A stretch of 34,623 nucleotides of DNA from Bacteroidota bacterium (lineage in GTDB: Bacteria; Bacteroidota; Rhodothermia; Rhodothermales; Bin80): contig JAPPNA010000159.1 of the NCBI GenBank assembly GCA_028873925.1, positions 1 through 34,623 of the forward strand, in the 5' to 3' direction. The notes below the pieces were generated by a model. The model did not search any database and had not been told where the DNA came from. It saw only the letters and a program-made list of their open reading frames with translations. Of this stretch, positions 21,648-31,434 are shown piece after piece. The translations under genes and the position numbers were made by a program. How positions within the stretch are numbered: the first letter of the stretch is position 1; every line of letters starts with the position of its first letter.

Positions 21648-23642
21648 TCAGAGGCTTTCGGCGAGTGACTCCCACTGTTCGTACAGTTCGCTCAGCTCTT
21701 TTTCAATGGCCGCGAAGGCCTTGGAGGCCTTACGGGCGCGGTCGGGATTGGAGTACACTTCAGGTTGGGTCAGTTCCGCTTCCGCCAGCATACGGCGGTT
21801 TTCCGCGTCCTCAATGGCGGTTTCAGCCTGCTGACAGAGTCGGGTACGTTGTACGGGGGTAAGGGCCGCACTGTGCATCCGGTCGCCGGACCGAGCCGCC
21901 TGGAAGGCCCGGTTGCGCGCTTCCGCCTCACGGCGCTTCTGCTCTTTGGATTTAGGGCCGCCGGAACGCACCGGCGGCCGGAACTCCGGGCGGGAAGCCC
22001 CCCGGATGCCGCCAAGTGCCTGTTGACTGATGGAGCCGTGCTCGCAGGCCCAACGGTACTCGGAATAGGTGCCCTGATAGACGCGCACGGTGCCCTGATC
22101 CGCATGCCAGACGGTATCTGCCACCTGATCTAGGAAGTGGCGATCGTGACTTACAATGACGAGGGTCCCCGCAAACTGCCGCAGCGCCTCAATGAGAATT
22201 TGAATGGACTGGATGTCCAAGTGGTTGGTGGGTTCGTCAAGTATCAGAAAATTGGCCGGATTTGAAAAAGTCCGCGCCAGGGCCAGCCTGCTCTTTTCCC
22301 CACCCGAAAGGACCCGCACCGGCTTGAGCACATCATCGCCGGTAAACAGGAATGCCCCCAAGAGCGTGCGCAAATGCACCTCATGGGAATTCGTCGATAC
22401 CTCCCGCAGGGACTCCAGCACCGTATGATCGGGCGAGAGCGTTTCGGCCTGATGCTGGGCAAAGAACCCGGTGTCAACATGGTAGCCGGGGGTTCTGACC
22501 CCGTCAAAAGGCTCCGTACCCAGCAGAATGCGCGCCAGCGTGGACTTGCCAGCACCGTTCTTGCCGATAAGTGCAATCTTGCTGCCGCGCTCTATTGCGA
22601 GCGGACCAGCATTATGAAAAACGGTGACGCGCTGCTGATCGGTGGTATAGACCTTGGTAAACGCCGACAGTGACAGCACCATGCGTCCTGAGCGGCGCGG
22701 TGCCGGGAATCGGATGCGGATTTCCGATTCAAGTGGTTCCGGCGCTCTGAGCAGTTCCAGGCGGCTAAGGTACTTGACGCGGCTCTGGACCTGGCGGGCT
22801 TTACTGGCCTTGTAACGGAAGCGCTCAATAAAGCGTCGGGTGCGGGCTATATCGCGCTGCTGGTTCTCATAAGCGGCCAGTTCCAATTGATGCCGTTTGG
22901 TGCGTTCAATAAGGAAGAAGTCATAGTTGCCAGCATATTCGGTTACGGAGCCGTGACGTAAATGCGCAATCGCACCCGTCATGCGGTTGAGGAAATACCG
23001 GTCGTGAGAGACGATGATCATGGTGCCACGATAGCCCTTCAGGTACTGTTCCAGCCAGTCAATCGTAGTGATGTCCAAATGGTTGGTGGGCTCGTCCAAC
23101 AACAGTACATCCGGGGCCTGCAGCAGCAGTCGGGCCAGCGCAACGCGCATCCGGTACCCGCCGGAGAGTTCACGCAGCGCCCGCCCGAAATCATCGCCCT
23201 CAAACCCAAGCCCGGTCAGTACCGACTCACATCGCGACTGCACGGAATGCGCCTCATGGACAGCCAGTTGGGCATGGATCTGCTCCAGGTCCGCCAACAG
23301 CCGGTCAGTCCGCCCGTTGTCGCGGGCCAAGGCCCGGGTAATGGAATTCTCTCTGCGGATCAGCCGATCTATGTGCTCAAATGCGGTCAGGGTTTCATCC
23401 ATGACCGTTCGGTCGCCATCCATTTCCTGGACATCCTGCGTCAGATAGCCGATCGTACTGGATCGAGACACGGTGCCTTCATCCGGTGTGAGCTGTCCGG
23501 CAATAACGCGAAGCAGCGTGGTCTTACCTGCACCATTTGCCCCGATGAGGCCAATCCGACGACCCGGACCGATCGTCCAGGACAGCTTCTCCAGTATAGG
23601 GTGGCCTCCCAGCGCCAGCGATATGGAATGAAGCTGGATCAC
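21648..23642 (-). CDS. ABC-F family ATPase
   Basis: A 664-residue soluble ATPase with two nucleotide-binding domains and no membrane segment, so it belongs to the ABC-F group that acts on ribosomes rather than in transport. Walker A motifs are GANGAGKT (34-41) and GKNGAGKS; signatures are LSGGYRMRVALARLL and LSGGEKSRLALARTF; Walker B regions are LLLDEPTNHLD and LILDEPTNHLD. The interdomain linker is rich in Arg/Lys, and the C-terminus (about 570-664) is a charged coiled coil as in Uup/YheS-like members. The start codon is GTG and overlaps the stop of the upstream sugar transferase by one base (TAGTG), indicating translational coupling. It may be a general translation factor; antibiotic resistance should not be inferred. 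Confidence 0.95.
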   Translation of the reverse strand: MIQLHSISLALGGHPILEKLSWTIGPGRRIGLIGANGAGKTTLLRVIAGQLTPDEGTVSRSSTIGYLTQDVQEMDGDRTVMDETLTAFEHIDRLIRRENSITRALARDNGRTDRLLADLEQIHAQLAVHEAHSVQSRCESVLTGLGFEGDDFGRALRELSGGYRMRVALARLLLQAPDVLLLDEPTNHLDITTIDWLEQYLKGYRGTMIIVSHDRYFLNRMTGAIAHLRHGSVTEYAGNYDFFLIERTKRHQLELAAYENQQRDIARTRRFIERFRYKASKARQVQSRVKYLSRLELLRAPEPLESEIRIRFPAPRRSGRMVLSLSAFTKVYTTDQQRVTVFHNAGPLAIERGSKIALIGKNGAGKSTLARILLGTEPFDGVRTPGYHVDTGFFAQHQAETLSPDHTVLESLREVSTNSHEVHLRTLLGAFLFTGDDVLKPVRVLSGGEKSRLALARTFSNPANFLILDEPTNHLDIQSIQILIEALRQFAGTLVIVSHDRHFLDQVADTVWHADQGTVRVYQGTYSEYRWACEHGSISQQALGGIRGASRPEFRPPVRSGGPKSKEQKRREAEARNRAFQAARSGDRMHSAALTPVQRTRLCQQAETAIEDAENRRMLAEAELTQPEVYSNPDRARKASKAFAAIEKELSELYEQWESLAESL

Positions 23643-25039
23643 TAATAGGCGTTGCGGCTCATAAAGCCCTTCCAGACCGTGAGCAGCATGATTTTCAGAT
23701 CGAGCAGCAGCGACCAGTTTTGAATGTAGTACAGATCGTGTCGGATCCGTTCGGTAATGGAGGTGTCACCGCGCCATCCGTTGACTTGGGCCCATCCGGT
23801 AATCCCGGCCTTCATCTTGTGCCTGAGCATATAGCGGGGCACCCGCTGCTTGAACTGGTCAATGAACACCGGCCGCTCCGGGCGGGGTCCGACCACGGAC
23901 ATGTCCCCCTTAAGGACATTGATGAACTGCGGCAGTTCGTCCAGCGAAGTGCGGCGGAGCCACTTGCCGATGGGGGTGGCCCGGTTTTCGCCTTTCGTTG
24001 CCCAGACCGGGCCGGACTCTTTCTCGGCGGTAACCGGCATGGACCTGAACTTCAGCATATCAAATCGCTGCCCATTCAGACTCATGCGCTGCTGCCGGTA
24101 CAGAATCGGCCCCGGTGACGACAGTTTGACCAGCAGGCTGATGAGAATCAACAGCGGAGACAGCACCACCAATATACCGGCTGAGAACAGCACATCCACA
24201 GCACGCTTTACGAATCGCCGAAAATCCATCGGTGCCTCGTCAATAATGTGGAGTACCGGAAGTCCATCCACATCCGTTATGCGGCTGTTGATGATGTCCA
24301 GTTGGAGCAGATCCGGGACCAAACATACATGCACCAGCCGGGTGGAGAGCGCATTGATCAGCTGTTCAATCCGATCGGCCGCCTTTAGCGGGAGGGCTAT
24401 GTAGACATAATCAATGGGTATTTCGGCCGAATCCACAATCTGGACCACCTCGTCGGTCGTGCCCAATATGTCTTCGTCATCGGACTTGTGGTCATCCAGA
24501 AAACCCAGCACTTTGAACCCCATCCAGGGATATTCATCAAACGAGCGCTGCAGGCGCCGACCCGCAACTCCGGCTCCAACGATAAGTACCCGGCGCATAC
24601 TGCGTCCCTGCCGGCGCGTGCGCCTGACACTCAGATAAAGCCCGACACGCAGCGTAATCATGGCCACGGGGGTCAGGGCAGCAAAGATCAGAATCGTCAG
24701 CCGCGATACGTAGAAGTCACGGTAGAACGACGCGAAGGCCACAGTGATCAGTAGGGAAAGCATTACCGCTTTGCCCACACCCCGAATGAGCCGTGTCCAG
24801 CGCTGTGCGCGATCAGGCACATACAGGCCGGATGCCCAGAATGTTGCCGCTGCGGTGATGAGAATCCAGGGCACAAAGGCCAGATACCGGTCAACCGGTT
24901 CCCATTCAGGCAGCGGGACCGGCCATTCACCAAATACTTCAAATCGAAGGAAATAGGCCGAGACCCAGGCACTTCCCACCAGGATCATATCGGCTACAAA
25001 GAGCAGCTGTTGATAGAACCGGCTTTGTTCCTGCAGCAT
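23642..25039 (-). CDS. Undecaprenyl-phosphate sugar-1-phosphate transferase (WcaJ/EpsE-like)
   Basis: A 465-residue polytopic membrane enzyme that would attach the first sugar phosphate to undecaprenyl phosphate, starting a polysaccharide repeat unit. Four hydrophobic segments in the first ~150 residues lead to a Rossmann-like domain (RRVLIVGAGVAGRRL...LGFLDD), then a further membrane segment and the catalytic sugar transferase domain with KLSSPGPILYRQQR, FDMLKFRSM, TSLDELPQFINVLKGDMSVVGPRPERP and AGITGWAQVNGWRG. The pattern resembles glucose-1-phosphate transferases, but the sugar is not proven. The start chosen (ATG at 25039) lies four bases after the upstream stop; a longer frame to 25246 would overlap that gene. 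A related but degenerate domain is present in the GT2 fusion at 29347-31434. Confidence 0.94.
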   Translation of the reverse strand: MLQEQSRFYQQLLFVADMILVGSAWVSAYFLRFEVFGEWPVPLPEWEPVDRYLAFVPWILITAAATFWASGLYVPDRAQRWTRLIRGVGKAVMLSLLITVAFASFYRDFYVSRLTILIFAALTPVAMITLRVGLYLSVRRTRRQGRSMRRVLIVGAGVAGRRLQRSFDEYPWMGFKVLGFLDDHKSDDEDILGTTDEVVQIVDSAEIPIDYVYIALPLKAADRIEQLINALSTRLVHVCLVPDLLQLDIINSRITDVDGLPVLHIIDEAPMDFRRFVKRAVDVLFSAGILVVLSPLLILISLLVKLSSPGPILYRQQRMSLNGQRFDMLKFRSMPVTAEKESGPVWATKGENRATPIGKWLRRTSLDELPQFINVLKGDMSVVGPRPERPVFIDQFKQRVPRYMLRHKMKAGITGWAQVNGWRGDTSITERIRHDLYYIQNWSLLLDLKIMLLTVWKGFMSRNAY

Positions 25040-25043
25040 GGGG

Positions 25044-26279
25044 TCACTGGCTAATTGCGAGCGCGTGCGCAGTCTGAAGCAGGGCATTGGCCCCGGCGAC
25101 GCAGTCATCCCAGTCGGTATACTCAGCAGCCGAGTGACTGTAGCCGAGGCGTGACGGGACAAACAGCAGGCCGGACGGACAAATCCGGGCCATAGACTGG
25201 GCATCATGGCCAGCCAGGGAGGGCAGGAGACTGTACTTGAGGCCAAGCCGGGTGCAGGAGGACTCCATCAGGCGGCAGATGTCGGGGTCCATGGCGCTCT
25301 CGGTTACCGATTCCAGATGATTGAATTCGGCCGTCAGCCCATAGCCATCGGCTGCGTCCGCAGCCGCGCCGCGCAGGGCATCCTCCAGCTGTCCGGCGCG
25401 GTGCGGGTCATCACTGCGCAACTCCATAAATACAGTAACCTGGTCGGGTACGATATTGAATGTCCCCGGTACAAATTTCATTTGGCCGACCGTAGCGACG
25501 CAGTCCGGGAAGTCCTCAAGCACTCGGCGGCGCACGGCCAGGCAGAAGGCGGAGGCACCCAGTGCGGCATCCTGGCGCTCAAGCATGGGCGTGGTTCCCG
25601 CATGGTTGGCCTGCCCGTTGAACGCGATAAGAAACATATGTATGCCGACCATGCCCGTTACAATTCCGATCCGGCTGTTGGTACGCTCCAGGCGCGTGCC
25701 CTGCTCAATGTGAAGTTCCAGGTAGGCGGCTGGCGGCTCTGCTGACCGGTCCGCCCCCAATATACCTTCTACGGTCAGGCCAGCGCGGTCCAGGGCCATC
25801 ACAAAGGCTTCTGGATTGCCGCGCGGATGAGCAAGATCCTTTTCTGTCAGCCTGCCGGTGGCGGCCCGACTGCCCATCAGCGAGACCCAGGTACCCTCTT
25901 CGTCCGTGAAGTCCATGACCTCAAGGTGCATCTTCTTCGGATGCGGAGCTTCGCGCAGCGTCCGGGCTACTTCAAAGGCTGCAGTTACGCCCAGGGTGCC
26001 GTCAAAGCGTCCGCCGTTGGGCACCGAGTCAAGGTGTGAGCCCAGCATCAGCGTAGGAGCATCAGGTTCGGCACAGCGCCAGACGGCCGACAGGTTGCCG
26101 GCACCATCGGTGTGCGCTTCAAACCCGCATTCACTGATGAGACCGCGAAAGGTGTCCCGGGCATCCAGGTGCGCCCGGCTCAGTGCGGGTCGGTTAAGGC
26201 CGCCTTCCGCCGTTGCTCCGTCGCGCGTGAGCGCACGGAAGATTTCGGCAAACCGTAAGGGGTTGACTTCCAGACTCAT
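25044..26279 (-). CDS. M20-family amidohydrolase (hydantoinase/carbamoylase type)
   Basis: A 411-residue cytoplasmic metalloenzyme of the allantoate amidohydrolase / N-carbamoyl-L-amino-acid hydrolase / beta-ureidopropionase group. Metal ligands are visible: H82 and D84 with D93 in GSHLDSVPNGGRFDG, E127-E128 in DFTDEEG, H190 in LELHIEQG, and the late histidine in RLGYSHSAAEYTDW. The G-S-R-A-x-T-G-R segment after the DEEG motif and an internal dimerisation domain also fit. The exact substrate cannot be assigned; no hydantoinase, allantoinase or purine-degradation genes are nearby. Its start overlaps the stop of the upstream deacetylase by four bases (ATGA), so the two are translationally coupled. 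Confidence 0.9.
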   Translation of the reverse strand: MSLEVNPLRFAEIFRALTRDGATAEGGLNRPALSRAHLDARDTFRGLISECGFEAHTDGAGNLSAVWRCAEPDAPTLMLGSHLDSVPNGGRFDGTLGVTAAFEVARTLREAPHPKKMHLEVMDFTDEEGTWVSLMGSRAATGRLTEKDLAHPRGNPEAFVMALDRAGLTVEGILGADRSAEPPAAYLELHIEQGTRLERTNSRIGIVTGMVGIHMFLIAFNGQANHAGTTPMLERQDAALGASAFCLAVRRRVLEDFPDCVATVGQMKFVPGTFNIVPDQVTVFMELRSDDPHRAGQLEDALRGAAADAADGYGLTAEFNHLESVTESAMDPDICRLMESSCTRLGLKYSLLPSLAGHDAQSMARICPSGLLFVPSRLGYSHSAAEYTDWDDCVAGANALLQTAHALAISQ

Positions 26280-27409
26280 CCGGCTTCCTGTTGCAGCTGA
26301 TTCAGGGTCTCTGTGGCGGTATGGCAGTTCATCGACCGAACTTCCAGGTCTGGATAGCTCACTTGCGGACCATCATGGAGGGTACGCGTCAGCGTGCGGT
26401 TGAGTCTGGACTGCCATGTTTCCAGCCACGTCTCGGGCAGATTCGCGGGCAGGTCAAGCCGCAACAGCATCAGTGCCAGCAACGCCCACACCCTGGGAGC
26501 CGTGTCCAAATCGTAGCCACCTCCAAGATTCATAACCGCCTGGCCGCCGCAATGCGTATCCGCGAGTTCAAAAATGCGATAGTACAGCGCTTCAAAGGTG
26601 TGTGTATTCAAGTTGAGATGGGCCAGTGGATCCGCCGCGTGGGCATCCGCGCCGCACTCAACCACCAATACGTCGGGGTCAAAGGCCGCGACGAGCGGTC
26701 GCACGAACCGGTCAAAAATGGCCAGGTAACTGTCATGGGCTGTACCGGGCTCCAGCGGGAAGTTGGCCGCATAGCCCCGTCCCGGCCCGCGCCCGATATC
26801 CTTCGGAAATCCGGTTCCCGGAAATAAATACCTGCCGGATTCATGCAGGCTTATGGTGAGCACGCCCGGATCCTCGTAGAACAGGTCTTGCACGCCATCC
26901 CCATGGTGGGCATCAATGTCCAGATAGGCGATGCGTTCAAAGCCCGATTCCTGCAGCTTAGCGATGGCAATGGCGGGATCATTGTAGACGCAGAAACCGG
27001 ATGCCGCCTCGCGGTGCGCATGATGCAGGCCGCCAGCCAGATGGAGCGCACGACACACCTTACCGCTGGCGACCAGCCGTGCGGCCGTCAGGGTGCCGCC
27101 CACAACCCATAGGGTCGCCTGATGCATGCCGCTGAACACGGGTACATCCGTAGTGCCCAGACCATATCCAGCAGCATAGGCAAGCTTATCACCCCTGGAG
27201 GCAGTTTCAACGGCCGCCACATAGGCTTCGCTGTGCATTCGGCGCACATCCCGGCGGGTCGCACACTGGGGCCTGACCAGGTGCGCTCCGGCACCCAGCT
27301 GCACCAGCAGATCGACAAGCATGGATCCCCGGAGTGGTGTAAACGGATGTTGAGGCCCAAAATCATACGTCTGACATTCGGGCCCGTACACAATGGCGCT
27401 ATCGGTCAT
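26276..27409 (-). CDS. Histone deacetylase family protein (AcuC-like)
   Basis: A 377-residue zinc-dependent deacetylase of the arginase/deacetylase fold. Key motifs are GGLHHAHREAASGFCVYND (active-site histidines 129-130), DIDAHHGDGVQ (zinc ligands D166 and H168), the late zinc aspartate in ECGADAHAADPL (D255) and NLGGGYD, supplying the usual active-site tyrosine. Length and motifs resemble AcuC, which in Bacillus deacetylates and activates acetyl-CoA synthetase. Whether that applies here is inference, although accA two genes upstream makes an acetyl-CoA link appealing. Its ATG directly follows the nadC stop (TAAATG), and its stop overlaps the next gene. Confidence 0.93.
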   Translation of the reverse strand: MTDSAIVYGPECQTYDFGPQHPFTPLRGSMLVDLLVQLGAGAHLVRPQCATRRDVRRMHSEAYVAAVETASRGDKLAYAAGYGLGTTDVPVFSGMHQATLWVVGGTLTAARLVASGKVCRALHLAGGLHHAHREAASGFCVYNDPAIAIAKLQESGFERIAYLDIDAHHGDGVQDLFYEDPGVLTISLHESGRYLFPGTGFPKDIGRGPGRGYAANFPLEPGTAHDSYLAIFDRFVRPLVAAFDPDVLVVECGADAHAADPLAHLNLNTHTFEALYYRIFELADTHCGGQAVMNLGGGYDLDTAPRVWALLALMLLRLDLPANLPETWLETWQSRLNRTLTRTLHDGPQVSYPDLEVRSMNCHTATETLNQLQQEAG

Positions 27410-28318
27410 TTACAGCAGATTCAGTCCAACATCCAAGGCCCTCACGGAATGGGTGAGTGCGCCGCAGGAAATGTAATCCACGCCGGTGGCTGCGGTGGCC
27501 CTGACGGTCGCAAGGGTAACGTTGCCGGAGGCTTCCGTCCGCAGTTTTCCGCCGACCAAGTTAACGGCAGCCTGGAGCCGGGTCGTGTCCGGAGCATCTG
27601 AATCTGCCAGGGAGACCATGTTGTCAAGCAACACCAGATCAATATGGTCGGCCAGGCCCAAGGCCAGCCGTACCTCCCGAAGGGTACGCGCTTCCACATC
27701 AACAGGAAGGCCGCCGCCGTGTCGGGCTGCACTCATTACGGCCTCTGCGAGCCCGCCCGCGGTGGCTATATGATTGTCTTTGATCAGGATTCGGTCGTAC
27801 AGTCCCATGCGGTGATTGGTCCCTCCTCCGAGCAGCACGGCCCATTTGTCCAGCTGCCGAAGGCCGGGCGCGGTCTTGCGGGTGTCGCGGATGCGCGCGG
27901 GGAATTCCTTTACAGCCTCAACCATGTGATGAGTGGCGGTGGCGATCCCGCTCATGCGCTGAAGGAAATTGAGTACAAGCCGTTCAGCAGCCATCAGGCT
28001 TCGTATCGGACCGTGCAGTATGCCCAAGCGGCAGTCGCCGGGCTGCAATTCCCCATCCGAACAATGCCATTGCACAATGAGGCGCTCATCCACCAGTGCG
28101 CACACCTGTTCGGCCACAAACAACCCGGCCACAACGCCGGCCTCTCTTAGCTCAACGGCCGCGGCTCCGGTGGCATTGGGCGGGATAATGGCTTGTGAGG
28201 TTACGTCTCCGGCCCCCAAGTCCTCCGCCAGCGCGTAAGCCAGGCATTGGCGCAGCTTCCCGGGCTGCACAAACGGGGGAAGTTGTCCGCTAACCGCCAT
28301 GGGCCGCGAGGGGATCAC
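27410..28318 (-). CDS. nadC: Nicotinate-nucleotide pyrophosphorylase (carboxylating)
   Basis: Quinolinate phosphoribosyltransferase, converting quinolinate and PRPP to nicotinate mononucleotide in de novo NAD synthesis. The 302 residues show the expected [10 protein letters not shown] near residue 32, [15 protein letters not shown], the [17 protein letters not shown] block (145 onward), the [20 protein letters not shown] block (164 onward), [16 protein letters not shown] and S-G-N-V-T-L near the end. No nadA or nadB is in the window. The GTG at 28318 overlaps the accA stop (GTGA). An ATG at 28300 (MAVSGQLPP) is an equally plausible start six codons later. Confidence 0.97.
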
Positions 28319-29307
28319 GCCACCGTATCAAACCTGCCTACCTGGTTAAGTCGGTGCAGGCGCTGGTCCAGAAGCTCCTCAGGTGCCAGGTGATCCAATT
28401 CCTTCAAGGCATCGCATATGGCCTGTCCCACCTGCTGATAGGCGTGCTCTGGATCATGGTGGGCACCGCCGGTCGGTTCCGGGATGATCTGATCAATAAT
28501 GCCGACGGACACCAGATCAGGGGCGGTCAATTTGAGTGCGCGTGCGGCTTCTTCTTTATAACGCCAGGAGCGCCACAGAATGGATGAGCAGCTTTCCGGT
28601 GCAATCACGGAATACCAGGCATTCTCCATCATCAGCATCCGATCGCCGACACCGATCCCCAGCGCTCCGCCGGATGCTCCTTCTCCAATGATGACAATTA
28701 CGACGGGGACCGGCAGTTCGGCCATGGCAAACAGGTTGCGTGCAATGGCTTCGGCCTGGCCGCGTTCCTCGGCCTCTTTGCCCGGATAGGCTCCCGGCGT
28801 ATCCAAAAGGCAGATTACCGGCTTGTTGAACTTAGCCGCCAGCTGCATGAGTCGGCGCGCTTTGCGATATCCTTCAGGGTTGGGCATTCCAAACCGCCGG
28901 AACTTGCGCGACTTCAGATCCCGTCCCTTCTGGTGCCCCAGTATCAGTACGGTGCGGTCCCTGTAGTCAAACTGCTGCCCCAACAGCGACGCGAAGCCGC
29001 CGATGACAGCGGGGTCATCGCCATAACAGCGGTCTCCGTGCAGCTCAATAAATCCGTCTGTCAGAGCGGAAATGTAATCGCTGGTATAGGGCCTGAGCGG
29101 GTGCCGGGCGATCTGGACGCGCTGCCAGTGCGTCAGATTCTCATAAATGGATTTCTGCAGAGCCTGAATACGCGCATCCAATTCCGCTACATCGCGGGCC
29201 AGTTCCGGGCGGGTGCCCTGCATGGCGCGCATATCCTCAAGCTTTTCTTCAAGCCTGGCTACCGGCTTTTCAAAATCCAGCAGGTATTTCTCCTCACGAA
29301 CGGGCAT
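28315..29307 (-). CDS. accA: Acetyl-CoA carboxylase carboxyltransferase subunit alpha
   Basis: The alpha subunit of the carboxyltransferase that makes malonyl-CoA for fatty acid synthesis, working with AccD in an alpha2beta2 complex. The 330 residues contain the N-terminal [19 protein letters not shown] helix and crotonase-fold motifs typical of Acc[67 protein letters not shown] and [13 protein letters not shown] chose the ATG at 29307; a TTG two codons upstream (29313) is less likely. The 39-base gap from the GT2 fusion upstream and the overlap with nadC downstream place it inside the long gene run. accD is not in the window. Confidence 0.98.
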
Positions 29308-29346
29308 AACCAAGTAACAACAGAAATAGCCGTTGGGTGTTCCGGC

Positions 29347-31434
29347 TTACAACATTGCCCGAATGGCCCGGAAGGCAATGATCCAGTCCAGCAGCGCGGA
29401 CTGATGCCGGACGTAGTACCAGTAGGCCTGTTCAATTTCTTCCGGGGGGCGGCGCAGGCGGGGGCCCAGCGTTTCGGAGACGGCGAAGACACCCTGTTCC
29501 AGCTGCCAGGCAGCGGGCGGGCGGAAGGCTCCATCGTCGCGGTAACCCACCAGGGCCATTTGCCCGGTCAGTACCGCGCGCCAGAGGCGGGTGCGGGTTT
29601 CAAGTGCAGCACAGAAGGACTGGGGGCCAAGTATCCGCCTTCCCAGTCGCACGAACGGATGCAGGCATGCGCCGGTCAGTGCGGCCAGCGAGTCAGAGAC
29701 TCGGCGGGCGTTTCTGCTGCGCAGGGCCCCCAAGGCTTCTTCGGCCTGCAGCAGCATGGCACCTTCAAGGTAATTGACGGACGCTTTGCCGATTACATGA
29801 TTATGGTGTTCAGCCAGGATTCGTGACTGTGCCGGCAGGTCGGCGAGTTCCTGCATGAGTGCAAAGATCCGCTTGTTGGAGAGGCTGGCGGAGGCAAATA
29901 TGACATCCTCTACCTGATAAATCCGCACAATGTCACGAAGCTGCTCAAGGGAACCCCTTAAGGGGGCCTTCGGCTGGATGTCGGCGGTGTGCTGATCGGC
30001 GGCAATAAAGCCGACCAATTCAAAAAGCGGTCTGGGCTGTCTGGCCAGGGCGGTTTCAACGCGTAGGACTTCTGCCGCGTCACCGATAATCAGGGCGCGG
30101 CGGCGGAACCGGTGCCGCGTCAGGCGCAGGAGGCGCACCGCCGAAAGCATCAGAATGCCTGCGGGCAGGCTGGCGAGTACCACCGCACGGGAAAAGGCGA
30201 TCTGTTTGATAAAGAACGATACGGCAGACAGCGTAACCACCGCGGTCAGCACGCCCGTCACGATGGCACCCAGCCTCGGATGCCTCCCCTGGTATCCCCC
30301 CATGGCTGCCATGGTGGCCGTTGCGATCAAGGCAAAAAGCGGAGCAATAATCAGAAAGAAGATGTCCGGGAAGGTGAACTGTGTCTGTATGAATCGAAAG
30401 AGGCCGAGGCTGGCCATGACCGTAAACAGCAGGATCAGATCTGTTAGGGCCCGGTGTTTGAGACCGCTTAGAGCCGCACTGAGGGCACCTCTAAGCAGCA
30501 CCCCTGTCCTGAGTGCCCACAGGAAGGCCCTGGGATAGTCGCTCTTGAGGTGCTTTTCGGCGAACCGCAGCATTGCACCATAAAACAGGCGCACATACTT
30601 GAGATCGCTTTTCTTGGTGCTTTCGCCTTTGTAGTGGATGATCCGGGTATCCGGCGTATAGTAGATCCGCCAGCCCGCCTGCTGAATGCGATAGCACCAG
30701 TCCAAGTCTTCACCGTACATAAAAAACCCCTCATCCATCAGTCCTGCTCCGTCCTGATGGGGCAGGGTGTCGGTGGCCTGCGAGCCCATGGCATCCAGGT
30801 TTTCGCGGTCAAGGGAGCTGTATGCGGTCGCACTGTACAACAGGGCCCCCTTGCGTACCATCATGCATGAACCGCTGAGTGCGTCCACTTCGGCTACCCG
30901 ATCATTGGGGAGCCAGGTCATGTTGTACTGACCGAAGCGGCGGCTATTGGGGAACAGGCGGCTTAGCCCGGTCATGCGGTAAAACGCGACCGGGGGCGTA
31001 GGGAAGGCCCGCCGGCTTTCCAGGGCGAAGGTGCCGTCGGGATTAAGGATGCGGCAGCCGACCGCACCGCAGTCCAGGTGGTGTTCCATGAAGTCCACGA
31101 GCACCGGCACGGTTTCCTCTTCCACGATCGTGTCCGGGTTGAGCACAAACAGGTATTCCCCCCGGGCTCGGCGAAGTGCCTGATTGTTCGCCTTAGCAAA
31201 GCCCGTATTAGCCGTGTTAGCTATCAGGATCACTTCCGGGAAAGCCTCCTGCACCATCGCCACGGAGCCATCCACGGAATTATTGTCAACTACGAAGACT
31301 TCGTGGGGGAGCGTCCGCAGGGATCGTTGCAGGCTGCGCAGGGCTTGTTCAAGAAACTCCCGCACATTGTAGTTGACAATAACGACCGAAACCTTACAGG
31401 GAGGCGCAGTGCTGTCGACTTGTCCGTCGGCCAT
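29347..31434 (-). CDS. GT2 glycosyltransferase fused to a degenerate polyprenyl sugar transferase-like module
   Basis: A 695-residue two-module protein. Residues about 14-290 are a GT-A family 2 glycosyltransferase of the rhamnosyltransferase (WbbL-like) type: VSVVIVNYNVREFLEQAL, FVVDNNSVDGS, the metal-binding N-P-D-T at 99-102, and GEDLDWCYRIQQAGW around 241-255. Residues about 330-435 hold four or so membrane helices. These lead to a Rossmann-like domain (RRALIIGDAAEVLRV...ELVGFIAAD) as in FlaA1/WbaP-type proteins. The last ~75 residues align loosely with the end of a sugar transferase domain (LTGQMALVGYR; YWYYVRHQSALLDWIIAFRAI), but the LDELPQ and PRPERP catalytic motifs are missing, so that part is probably inactive. 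It should extend a lipid-linked saccharide at the inner membrane. First gene of the minus-strand run. Confidence 0.88.
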   Translation of the reverse strand: MADGQVDSTAPPCKVSVVIVNYNVREFLEQALRSLQRSLRTLPHEVFVVDNNSVDGSVAMVQEAFPEVILIANTANTGFAKANNQALRRARGEYLFVLNPDTIVEEETVPVLVDFMEHHLDCGAVGCRILNPDGTFALESRRAFPTPPVAFYRMTGLSRLFPNSRRFGQYNMTWLPNDRVAEVDALSGSCMMVRKGALLYSATAYSSLDRENLDAMGSQATDTLPHQDGAGLMDEGFFMYGEDLDWCYRIQQAGWRIYYTPDTRIIHYKGESTKKSDLKYVRLFYGAMLRFAEKHLKSDYPRAFLWALRTGVLLRGALSAALSGLKHRALTDLILLFTVMASLGLFRFIQTQFTFPDIFFLIIAPLFALIATATMAAMGGYQGRHPRLGAIVTGVLTAVVTLSAVSFFIKQIAFSRAVVLASLPAGILMLSAVRLLRLTRHRFRRRALIIGDAAEVLRVETALARQPRPLFELVGFIAADQHTADIQPKAPLRGSLEQLRDIVRIYQVEDVIFASASLSNKRIFALMQELADLPAQSRILAEHHNHVIGKASVNYLEGAMLLQAEEALGALRSRNARRVSDSLAALTGACLHPFVRLGRRILGPQSFCAALETRTRLWRAVLTGQMALVGYRDDGAFRPPAAWQLEQGVFAVSETLGPRLRRPPEEIEQAYWYYVRHQSALLDWIIAFRAIRAML

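Follow-up and report, generated by a model that had tools for sequence, protein, structure and literature searches.

A predicted GT2 glycosyltransferase fused to a catalytically emptied large PGT in Bacteroidota

The gene at 29347..31434 (minus strand) of the window, that is, of the whole stretch of 34,623 nucleotides analysed here (contig JAPPNA010000159.1 of a Bacteroidota bacterium of the class Rhodothermia), encodes a 695-aa protein, P0001, in which a GT2 glycosyltransferase is followed by a four-helix membrane bundle (4TM), a DUF (PF13727) and a pseudo-PGT domain. Profile comparisons identify its C-terminal half as a large PGT (Lg-PGT) that has lost its catalytic block, a loss that is family-wide. 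The GT2 is most likely a working enzyme, which would add a sugar to a polyprenyl-diphosphate-linked acceptor at the cytoplasmic face of the membrane, and we tentatively propose that the part derived from the PGT, its chemistry gone, may act as a docking module.

The reading frame, for which the first-pass annotation named no strand, starts with ATG, runs from 31434 down to 29347 on the minus strand and terminates with a stop codon at 29347-29349; a plus-strand reading of 29347-31434 was rejected owing to several stops, and an assembly or frameshift artefact was rejected as the source of the fusion because relatives from many families show the same architecture. The GT2 catalytic domain (residues 10-300; 30535..31407, minus strand) is detected by PF00535 (E-value 8.8e-26; 91.3 bits, cut-off 23.3) and exhibits intact VDNNSVDGS, NPDT and FMYGEDLD motifs, with the columns D50, N51, S53, D55, N99, P100, D101, E242 and D243 invariant among 69 aligned relatives (excluding L057, L073 (internal stop), L078, for which L138 was used instead, and the duplicate copies L124-L137 and L139-L143). 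The Pfam match and the catalytic motifs predict that P0001 is a GT2 glycosyltransferase. The domain contains an insert of ~30 residues (199-228; 30751..30840, minus strand) that most relatives lack: their matches to P0001 break between residues 198 and 230, in agreement with the relatives' alignment. Helix predictions place the membrane bundle between the GT2 domain and the DUF (linker and four helices, residues 301-440; 30115..30534, minus strand). The DUF itself, a CoA_binding_3 Rossmann-like domain (residues 441-570; 29725..30114, minus strand), passes PF13727 (E-value 6.8e-13 at 388-539; 49.4 bits, cut-off 25), and the bundle together with the DUF matches the N-terminal domains of intact PGTs in hhalign (99.9%, E-value 5.6e-32); the protein accordingly has the Lg-PGT architecture of 4TM bundle and PF13727 domain. 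The DUF ends in a strand and a hairpin (residues 546-563; 29746..29799, minus strand), which align, as a region of sequence, with Asn251-Gln268 in the swap-hairpin region of WbaP (8t53).

The remaining part of the protein comprises a reentrant-helix-like segment (residues 571-603; 29626..29724, minus strand), identified by hhalign and retaining R578, D581 and Pro593, and a remnant of the PGT domain (residues 604-695; 29350..29625, minus strand; VLTGQMALVGY ... YWYYVRHQSALLDW). PF02397 fails here with 13.8 bits against a cut-off of 27, covering only profile positions 96-178 of 179. Nonetheless, the C-termini of 67 of the 69 aligned relatives match those of 44 intact PGTs in hhalign (99.4%, E-value 3.4e-21), the GT2 control in the same comparison scoring 0.1%, by which a chance likeness to PGTs was rejected. 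What the fusion relatives lack in this alignment is the central block that separates the reentrant-helix-like segment from the VL.G..S.VG motif, i.e. the catalytic block GP..Y..R..KFRSM..DELPQ..PRP. The R578-G630 span, which reaches from the first helix to the VG motif, measures 33-77 residues (median 51) in the 69 relatives vs. 102-105 in the 44 PGTs. The DELPQ-type dyad, searched for as one pattern, occurs in none of the 69 relatives and none of six Eisenbacteriota fusions vs. 42 of the 44 PGTs, and KFR[ST]M in none of the 69 vs. 43 of the 44. The first-pass annotation, which had described a GT2 fused to a sugar-transferase-like module without LDELPQ and PRPERP motifs, is borne out by the missing dyad and the profile match. 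With the dyad absent and PF02397 below its gathering score, the fusion is predicted to be neither a Bi-PGT nor a catalytic monotopic PGT.

The remnant shows several near-invariant columns: Y674 (69/69), D683 and G630 (67/69 each), G624 (64/69), P593 and G648 (63/69 each); R578 is conserved in 60 of the 69 relatives and D581 in 56, with E in 11 more. In these sequence columns the helix-breaking Pro593 is retained and the serine preceding it is not conserved. The dN/dS of the PGT-derived half is 0.07-0.30 in 9 of 11 pairs, the remaining two being saturated, and this half is thus under purifying selection.

The AF2 model used for structural comparisons covers residues 322-695 and is based on a 13-row alignment that includes intact PGTs, and its confidence is modest (pLDDT 70.4, pTM 0.42), both of which count against the explanation proposed below; a first model, obtained with six rows (pLDDT 41.9), was set aside. 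Foldseek reported WbaP as the best match (8t53, E-value 1e-6), and the superposition on 8t53 yielded Z 11.0 with an rmsd of 20.4 over 323 residues, so the domain placement either differs or is wrong. The DUF of the model matches 3nkl (Z 12.3), and model residues 249-374 match PglC (8g1n) with Z 7.8, in the middling range (rmsd 4.2, 120 aligned residues, 24% identity). The profile match to WbaP, with intact PGT rows in the alignment, has an E-value of 1.2e-53. The predicted structure thus supports a PGT ancestry through its matches to WbaP and PglC. Neither of the two outcomes that the first-pass annotation named as refuting it, a predicted structure without the sugar-transferase fold after residue 590 or intact catalytic residues in a shifted alignment, appeared.

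Lg-PGTs (WbaP/WcaJ; PF13727 and PF02397) are arranged like the fusion, with the 4TM bundle followed by the DUF, a segment that in the fusion resembles the reentrant helix, and the C-terminal helices, whereas the fusion is devoid of the Asp-Glu dyad block and the PRP motif and carries a GT2 domain in front. With the GT2 rhamnosyl/hexosyl transferases it shares the intact GT2 motifs, matching TIGR01556 below the cut-off (E-value 1.4e-11). The closest GT2 transferases of lipid-linked glycan assembly are those we would call WbbL-like, and we know of none with a PGT-derived tail. Bi-PGTs, as defined in PMC10942596, resemble the fusion in that a functional domain is fused to a monotopic PGT, but they keep its catalytic core, which is missing here. 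PglF-like dehydratases have the 4TM bundle and the DUF in common with Lg-PGTs (PMC10942596), but they keep a catalytic dehydratase domain, whereas the fusion tail keeps a PGT remnant. The full-text literature searched, including passages of PMC10942596, PMC12802240 and PMC10519829, yielded no account of a GT2 joined to a PGT that lacks its catalytic block; the survey of O'Toole 2021 (PNAS), a possible place for such a fusion, lay outside this search. The pieces of the architecture are known from Lg-PGTs, Bi-PGTs and PglF-like proteins, and within these sources the combination of a dead PGT with a GT2 appears to be new.

An intact Lg-PGT of the WcaJ type (P0002; 23642..25039, minus strand) is encoded downstream of the fusion in the same head-to-tail run. 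It possesses the LDELPQ, PRPERP and KFRSM motifs and passes TIGR03023 (WcaJ; 483 bits, cut-off 411); the stretches quoted earlier from the two proteins, YWYYVRHQSALLDW in the fusion and DLYYIQNWSLLLDL in this true enzyme, are indeed there. The fusion heads the minus-strand run, followed by accA (28315..29313, minus strand), nadC (27410..28318, minus strand), a histone-deacetylase-like protein, an M20 amidohydrolase, the intact WcaJ-type PGT and an ABC-F protein, and neighbours overlap or sit within ~35 bases of each other. These seven genes (21648-31434) mix housekeeping functions (accA, nadC) with glycan genes (the fusion and the PGT) and the ABC-F gene. Across the phylum, the accA cluster stands beside the fusion in 49 of 64 loci, with no evident reason, and 21 of 64 have the nadC cluster. 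The housekeeping genes that separate the fusion from the PGT in the window count against docking. In a tree, the PGT of the window sits in a clade that is particular to its order and distinct from the one that adjoins the fusion in other classes. The second PGT of this genome (contig 132, L002) groups with the latter; no fusion-cluster genes were recognised around the contig-132 copy. The occurrence of two PGT clades near the fusion indicates that the place beside it is filled by different PGTs.

The survey covered 296 genomes of the phylum (presumably GTDB Bacteroidota). The family profile has a match in 177 of them at a threshold of 1e-90, and a hand count gives 129 with the full-length version, for which the match has to begin at profile position 16 or earlier and reach position 650 or beyond. 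An intact PGT is found in 266 of the 296, namely in 129 of the 129 genomes with a full-length fusion vs. 137 of the 167 others. The expectation that the fusion always co-occurs with an active copy thus holds for every genome of this sample with the full-length form. The corresponding Fisher value of 1.2e-8 ignores kinship and is overstated, because the listed PGT-free genomes fall in two families (f14 and f23); as PGTs are so common, the co-occurrence constitutes weak evidence. At the level of loci, an intact PGT lies inside the fetched region of 8-18 kb in 46 of 65 cases, in all 46 on the strand of the fusion, against roughly 1-2% estimated by chance; the 65 loci are 60 genomes (PGT in 41) and 5 further records (PGT in all 5) that may duplicate some of them. 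The 19 loci without a PGT in the fetched stretch count against docking. The PGT is located 1.9-4.9 kb upstream of the fusion in most other classes and 3.4-6.5 kb downstream in the class of the window. A PGT within 8 kb in 21 of 22 genomes refers to top-ranked rows with rounded positions, and we therefore prefer the figure of 46 of 65. In the fetched flanks of Eisenbacteriota no separate intact PGT was found, the single match (L226) overlapping the fusion, which again counts against docking.

Elsewhere the genes are mostly arranged as PGT, [DegT aminotransferase], Dpm1-like GT2 (our label for a PF00535 protein; cluster present in 35 of 64 loci), fusion, accA, thioesterase, nadC and flippase; 6 of the 64 loci in this analysis are without a long fusion ORF. 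One branch of the class of the window (L093, L104, L109, L111, L114) exhibits the order fusion, opposite-strand ORF, PGT, Dpm1-like; this ORF has an identical length of 375 aa in all five loci, and accA is next in four of them. In L085 (10623-13103, minus strand), at a distance of a few kb on the upstream side of the GT2 fusion, a single 827-aa protein combines PF00953 (a WecA/MraY-type polytopic PGT) with an intact Lg monotopic PGT, i.e. two unrelated initiating enzymes; PGT frames of 827-834 aa also occur in L091, L143 and G251 (the Pfam scan covered L085). In the Eisenbacteriota loci L224 (3868-6974) and L211 a Dpm1-like gene precedes the fusion, and in L224 so does a YfhO protein (PF09586), resembling a polyprenyl-phosphate-sugar system.

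The history of the family looks stepwise, from separate genes to a dyad-less fusion, a fusion with the core deleted and finally GT2 with the DUF. In Chloroflexota the GT2 and the intact PGT are separate adjoining genes: in L008, the TGATGATG run at the end of the GT2 frame is also where the PGT frame starts, and in G299 a gap of 60 bases separates the two ORFs. A Chloroflexota frame of 807 was rejected as a fused ORF, since it represents two genes. Six of seven Eisenbacteriota genomes encode GT2, bundle, DUF and a dyad-less PGT half in a single ORF, with the Dpm1-like gene directly upstream in 6 of 6; this PGT half is longer (less deleted) than that of the window, and in two fusions it passes PF02397 via the C-terminal half (56.6 and 50.8 bits). 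In the Bacteroidota fusions the catalytic core of the PGT is deleted, and the frames of family f17 are smaller still (611-620 aa). Among the matches listed, no GT2 joined to an intact PGT, the expected ancestral state, was recognised. A tree of the bundle and DUF region, calculated for a chosen subset of 43 fusions and 34 PGTs, places the fusions on one side of a branch and the PGTs on the other (98, starred); in a second tree (32 Bacteroidota fusions, 6 Eisenbacteriota and 32 PGTs, likewise chosen, the short L046 excluded) the Bacteroidota fusions, the Eisenbacteriota fusions and the PGTs each form one group (97 and 100, both starred, and 87). A single origin of the fusion would fit these trees, and two origins are also possible.

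The short forms consist of GT2 and DUF only, bundle and PGT being gone, and end at the hairpin. In family f26, 36 of 60 genomes contain such a frame (364-401 aa). The tail profile of 24 short forms, mostly from f26 (excluding L194, L195, L196, L198 and L201, which have no comparable tail; L193 gave no target), matches the fusion DUF at 96.6% (E-value 6.5e-10), as opposed to 3.2% for the PGT DUFs and 0.1-5.0% for the controls overall. The order to which the window belongs has a separate short form (family f3; L250, L251; 95.5% and E-value 1.4e-8 against the fusion DUF). The neighbours recR and E2 link short or GT2-only forms (L191, L197, L198, L200, L201) with full ones (L087, L100, L101, L105). 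Families f21 and f29 have both full and short members, so reduction probably occurred more than once, and the bundle and PGT were probably lost twice or more. The hairpin is kept in most short forms seen, with the exception of L194, in which the hairpin motif is lacking; in the members of f23, f24 and f18 looked at, GT2 stands alone (~280-330 aa). Both observations count against docking. Since several lineages lost the bundle and the pseudo-PGT and kept GT2 with the DUF, the part retained appears to be the DUF up to the hairpin and not the membrane half. The suggestion of the first-pass annotation that a catalytically dead PGT serves as a membrane scaffold thus stands as regards the dead but constrained PGT half and the active PGT nearby, and does not as regards the membrane part, lost in several lineages including L250 and L251.

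We infer GT2 activity, its substrate, DUF-DUF pairing and a hand-over as follows. In the WbaP dimer the hairpin swaps between the DUFs of the subunits (PMC10942596); the DUF of the fusion would pair with the DUF of the active PGT from the same pathway via a hairpin swap of this type, which would seat the GT2 beside the enzyme that makes its acceptor, and the lipid-linked sugar would be handed from the active PGT to the GT2. This explanation as a whole, a working GT2 with PGT-derived docking onto an active PGT, is one to which we give slightly less than even credence. In a bolder and rather doubtful version, the mixed dimer of GT2 fusion and PGT, formed by the swap of DUF hairpins, could represent a phylum-wide heteromeric priming machine, with the first two sugars laid by one complex and the GT2+DUF short forms as its minimal docked version.

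The best rival to docking is nucleotide sensing. The DUF might be a sensor of uridine nucleotides (UMP/UDP) that gates the GT2, or else a homodimeriser of the GT2, with the pseudo-PGT packed in the membrane and making no contact with the active PGT, a pair of readings that we regard as plausible and yet doubtful. PMC10942596 reports that UMP, UDP and UTP stabilise the DUF of WbaP on its own, that UMP inhibits full-length WbaP and that WbaP itself is homodimeric; moreover, the DUF is the part that survives when the rest is lost. Neither a sensor nor a homodimer explains, however, why an active PGT lies close by in 46 of 65 loci or why the C-terminal remnant is conserved. That remnant could instead make the membrane half an inert, partner-free platform that binds lipid and keeps the lipid-linked acceptor at hand for the GT2 in front of it, as the retained reentrant-helix-like segment with its proline (63/69) and the C-terminal YY...LD helix might suggest. 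We consider this unlikely. The PglC Arg88 segment, which we take to lie before the dyad, would fall inside the block deleted here. Arg88 is reported to be one of the two UndP-contacting arginines of PglC; its position in the deleted block, together with the lineages that do without the membrane half, weakens the platform idea, and the arginine columns 660-662 are not conserved either.

The stepwise shrinkage, with Eisenbacteriota less deleted, Bacteroidota more, f17 further and the short forms most, is what would be expected if, after an ancient fusion event, a functionless PGT half were simply eroding at a slow pace; we find this improbable in view of the purifying selection on this half, the near-invariant positions throughout the phylum and the retention of the full-length form in 129 of the 296 genomes. 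A PGT half that is still catalytic through a rebuilt active site is the least credible of all and very improbable indeed: the new conserved positions P593, G624, G648, Y674 and D683 could be read in its favour, but Y674 and D683 occur also in the active P0002 and therefore look structural, and the dyad and mobile-loop block are gone.

The fusion bears on how cytoplasmic glycan enzymes are held together at the membrane and on the role of PF13727 in large PGTs, of which the first descriptions have recently appeared. In this family, evolution seems to have run the deletion experiment, with the chemistry lost first, the membrane part next and the DUF last; in consequence, the function of the DUF could be tested on a soluble-looking GT2+DUF protein of ~400 residues. 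As two dead Eisenbacteriota halves pass PF02397, such genes could be miscounted as initiating enzymes. More generally, the fusion points to a shared way in which neighbouring steps of cell-surface sugar assembly may be held together.
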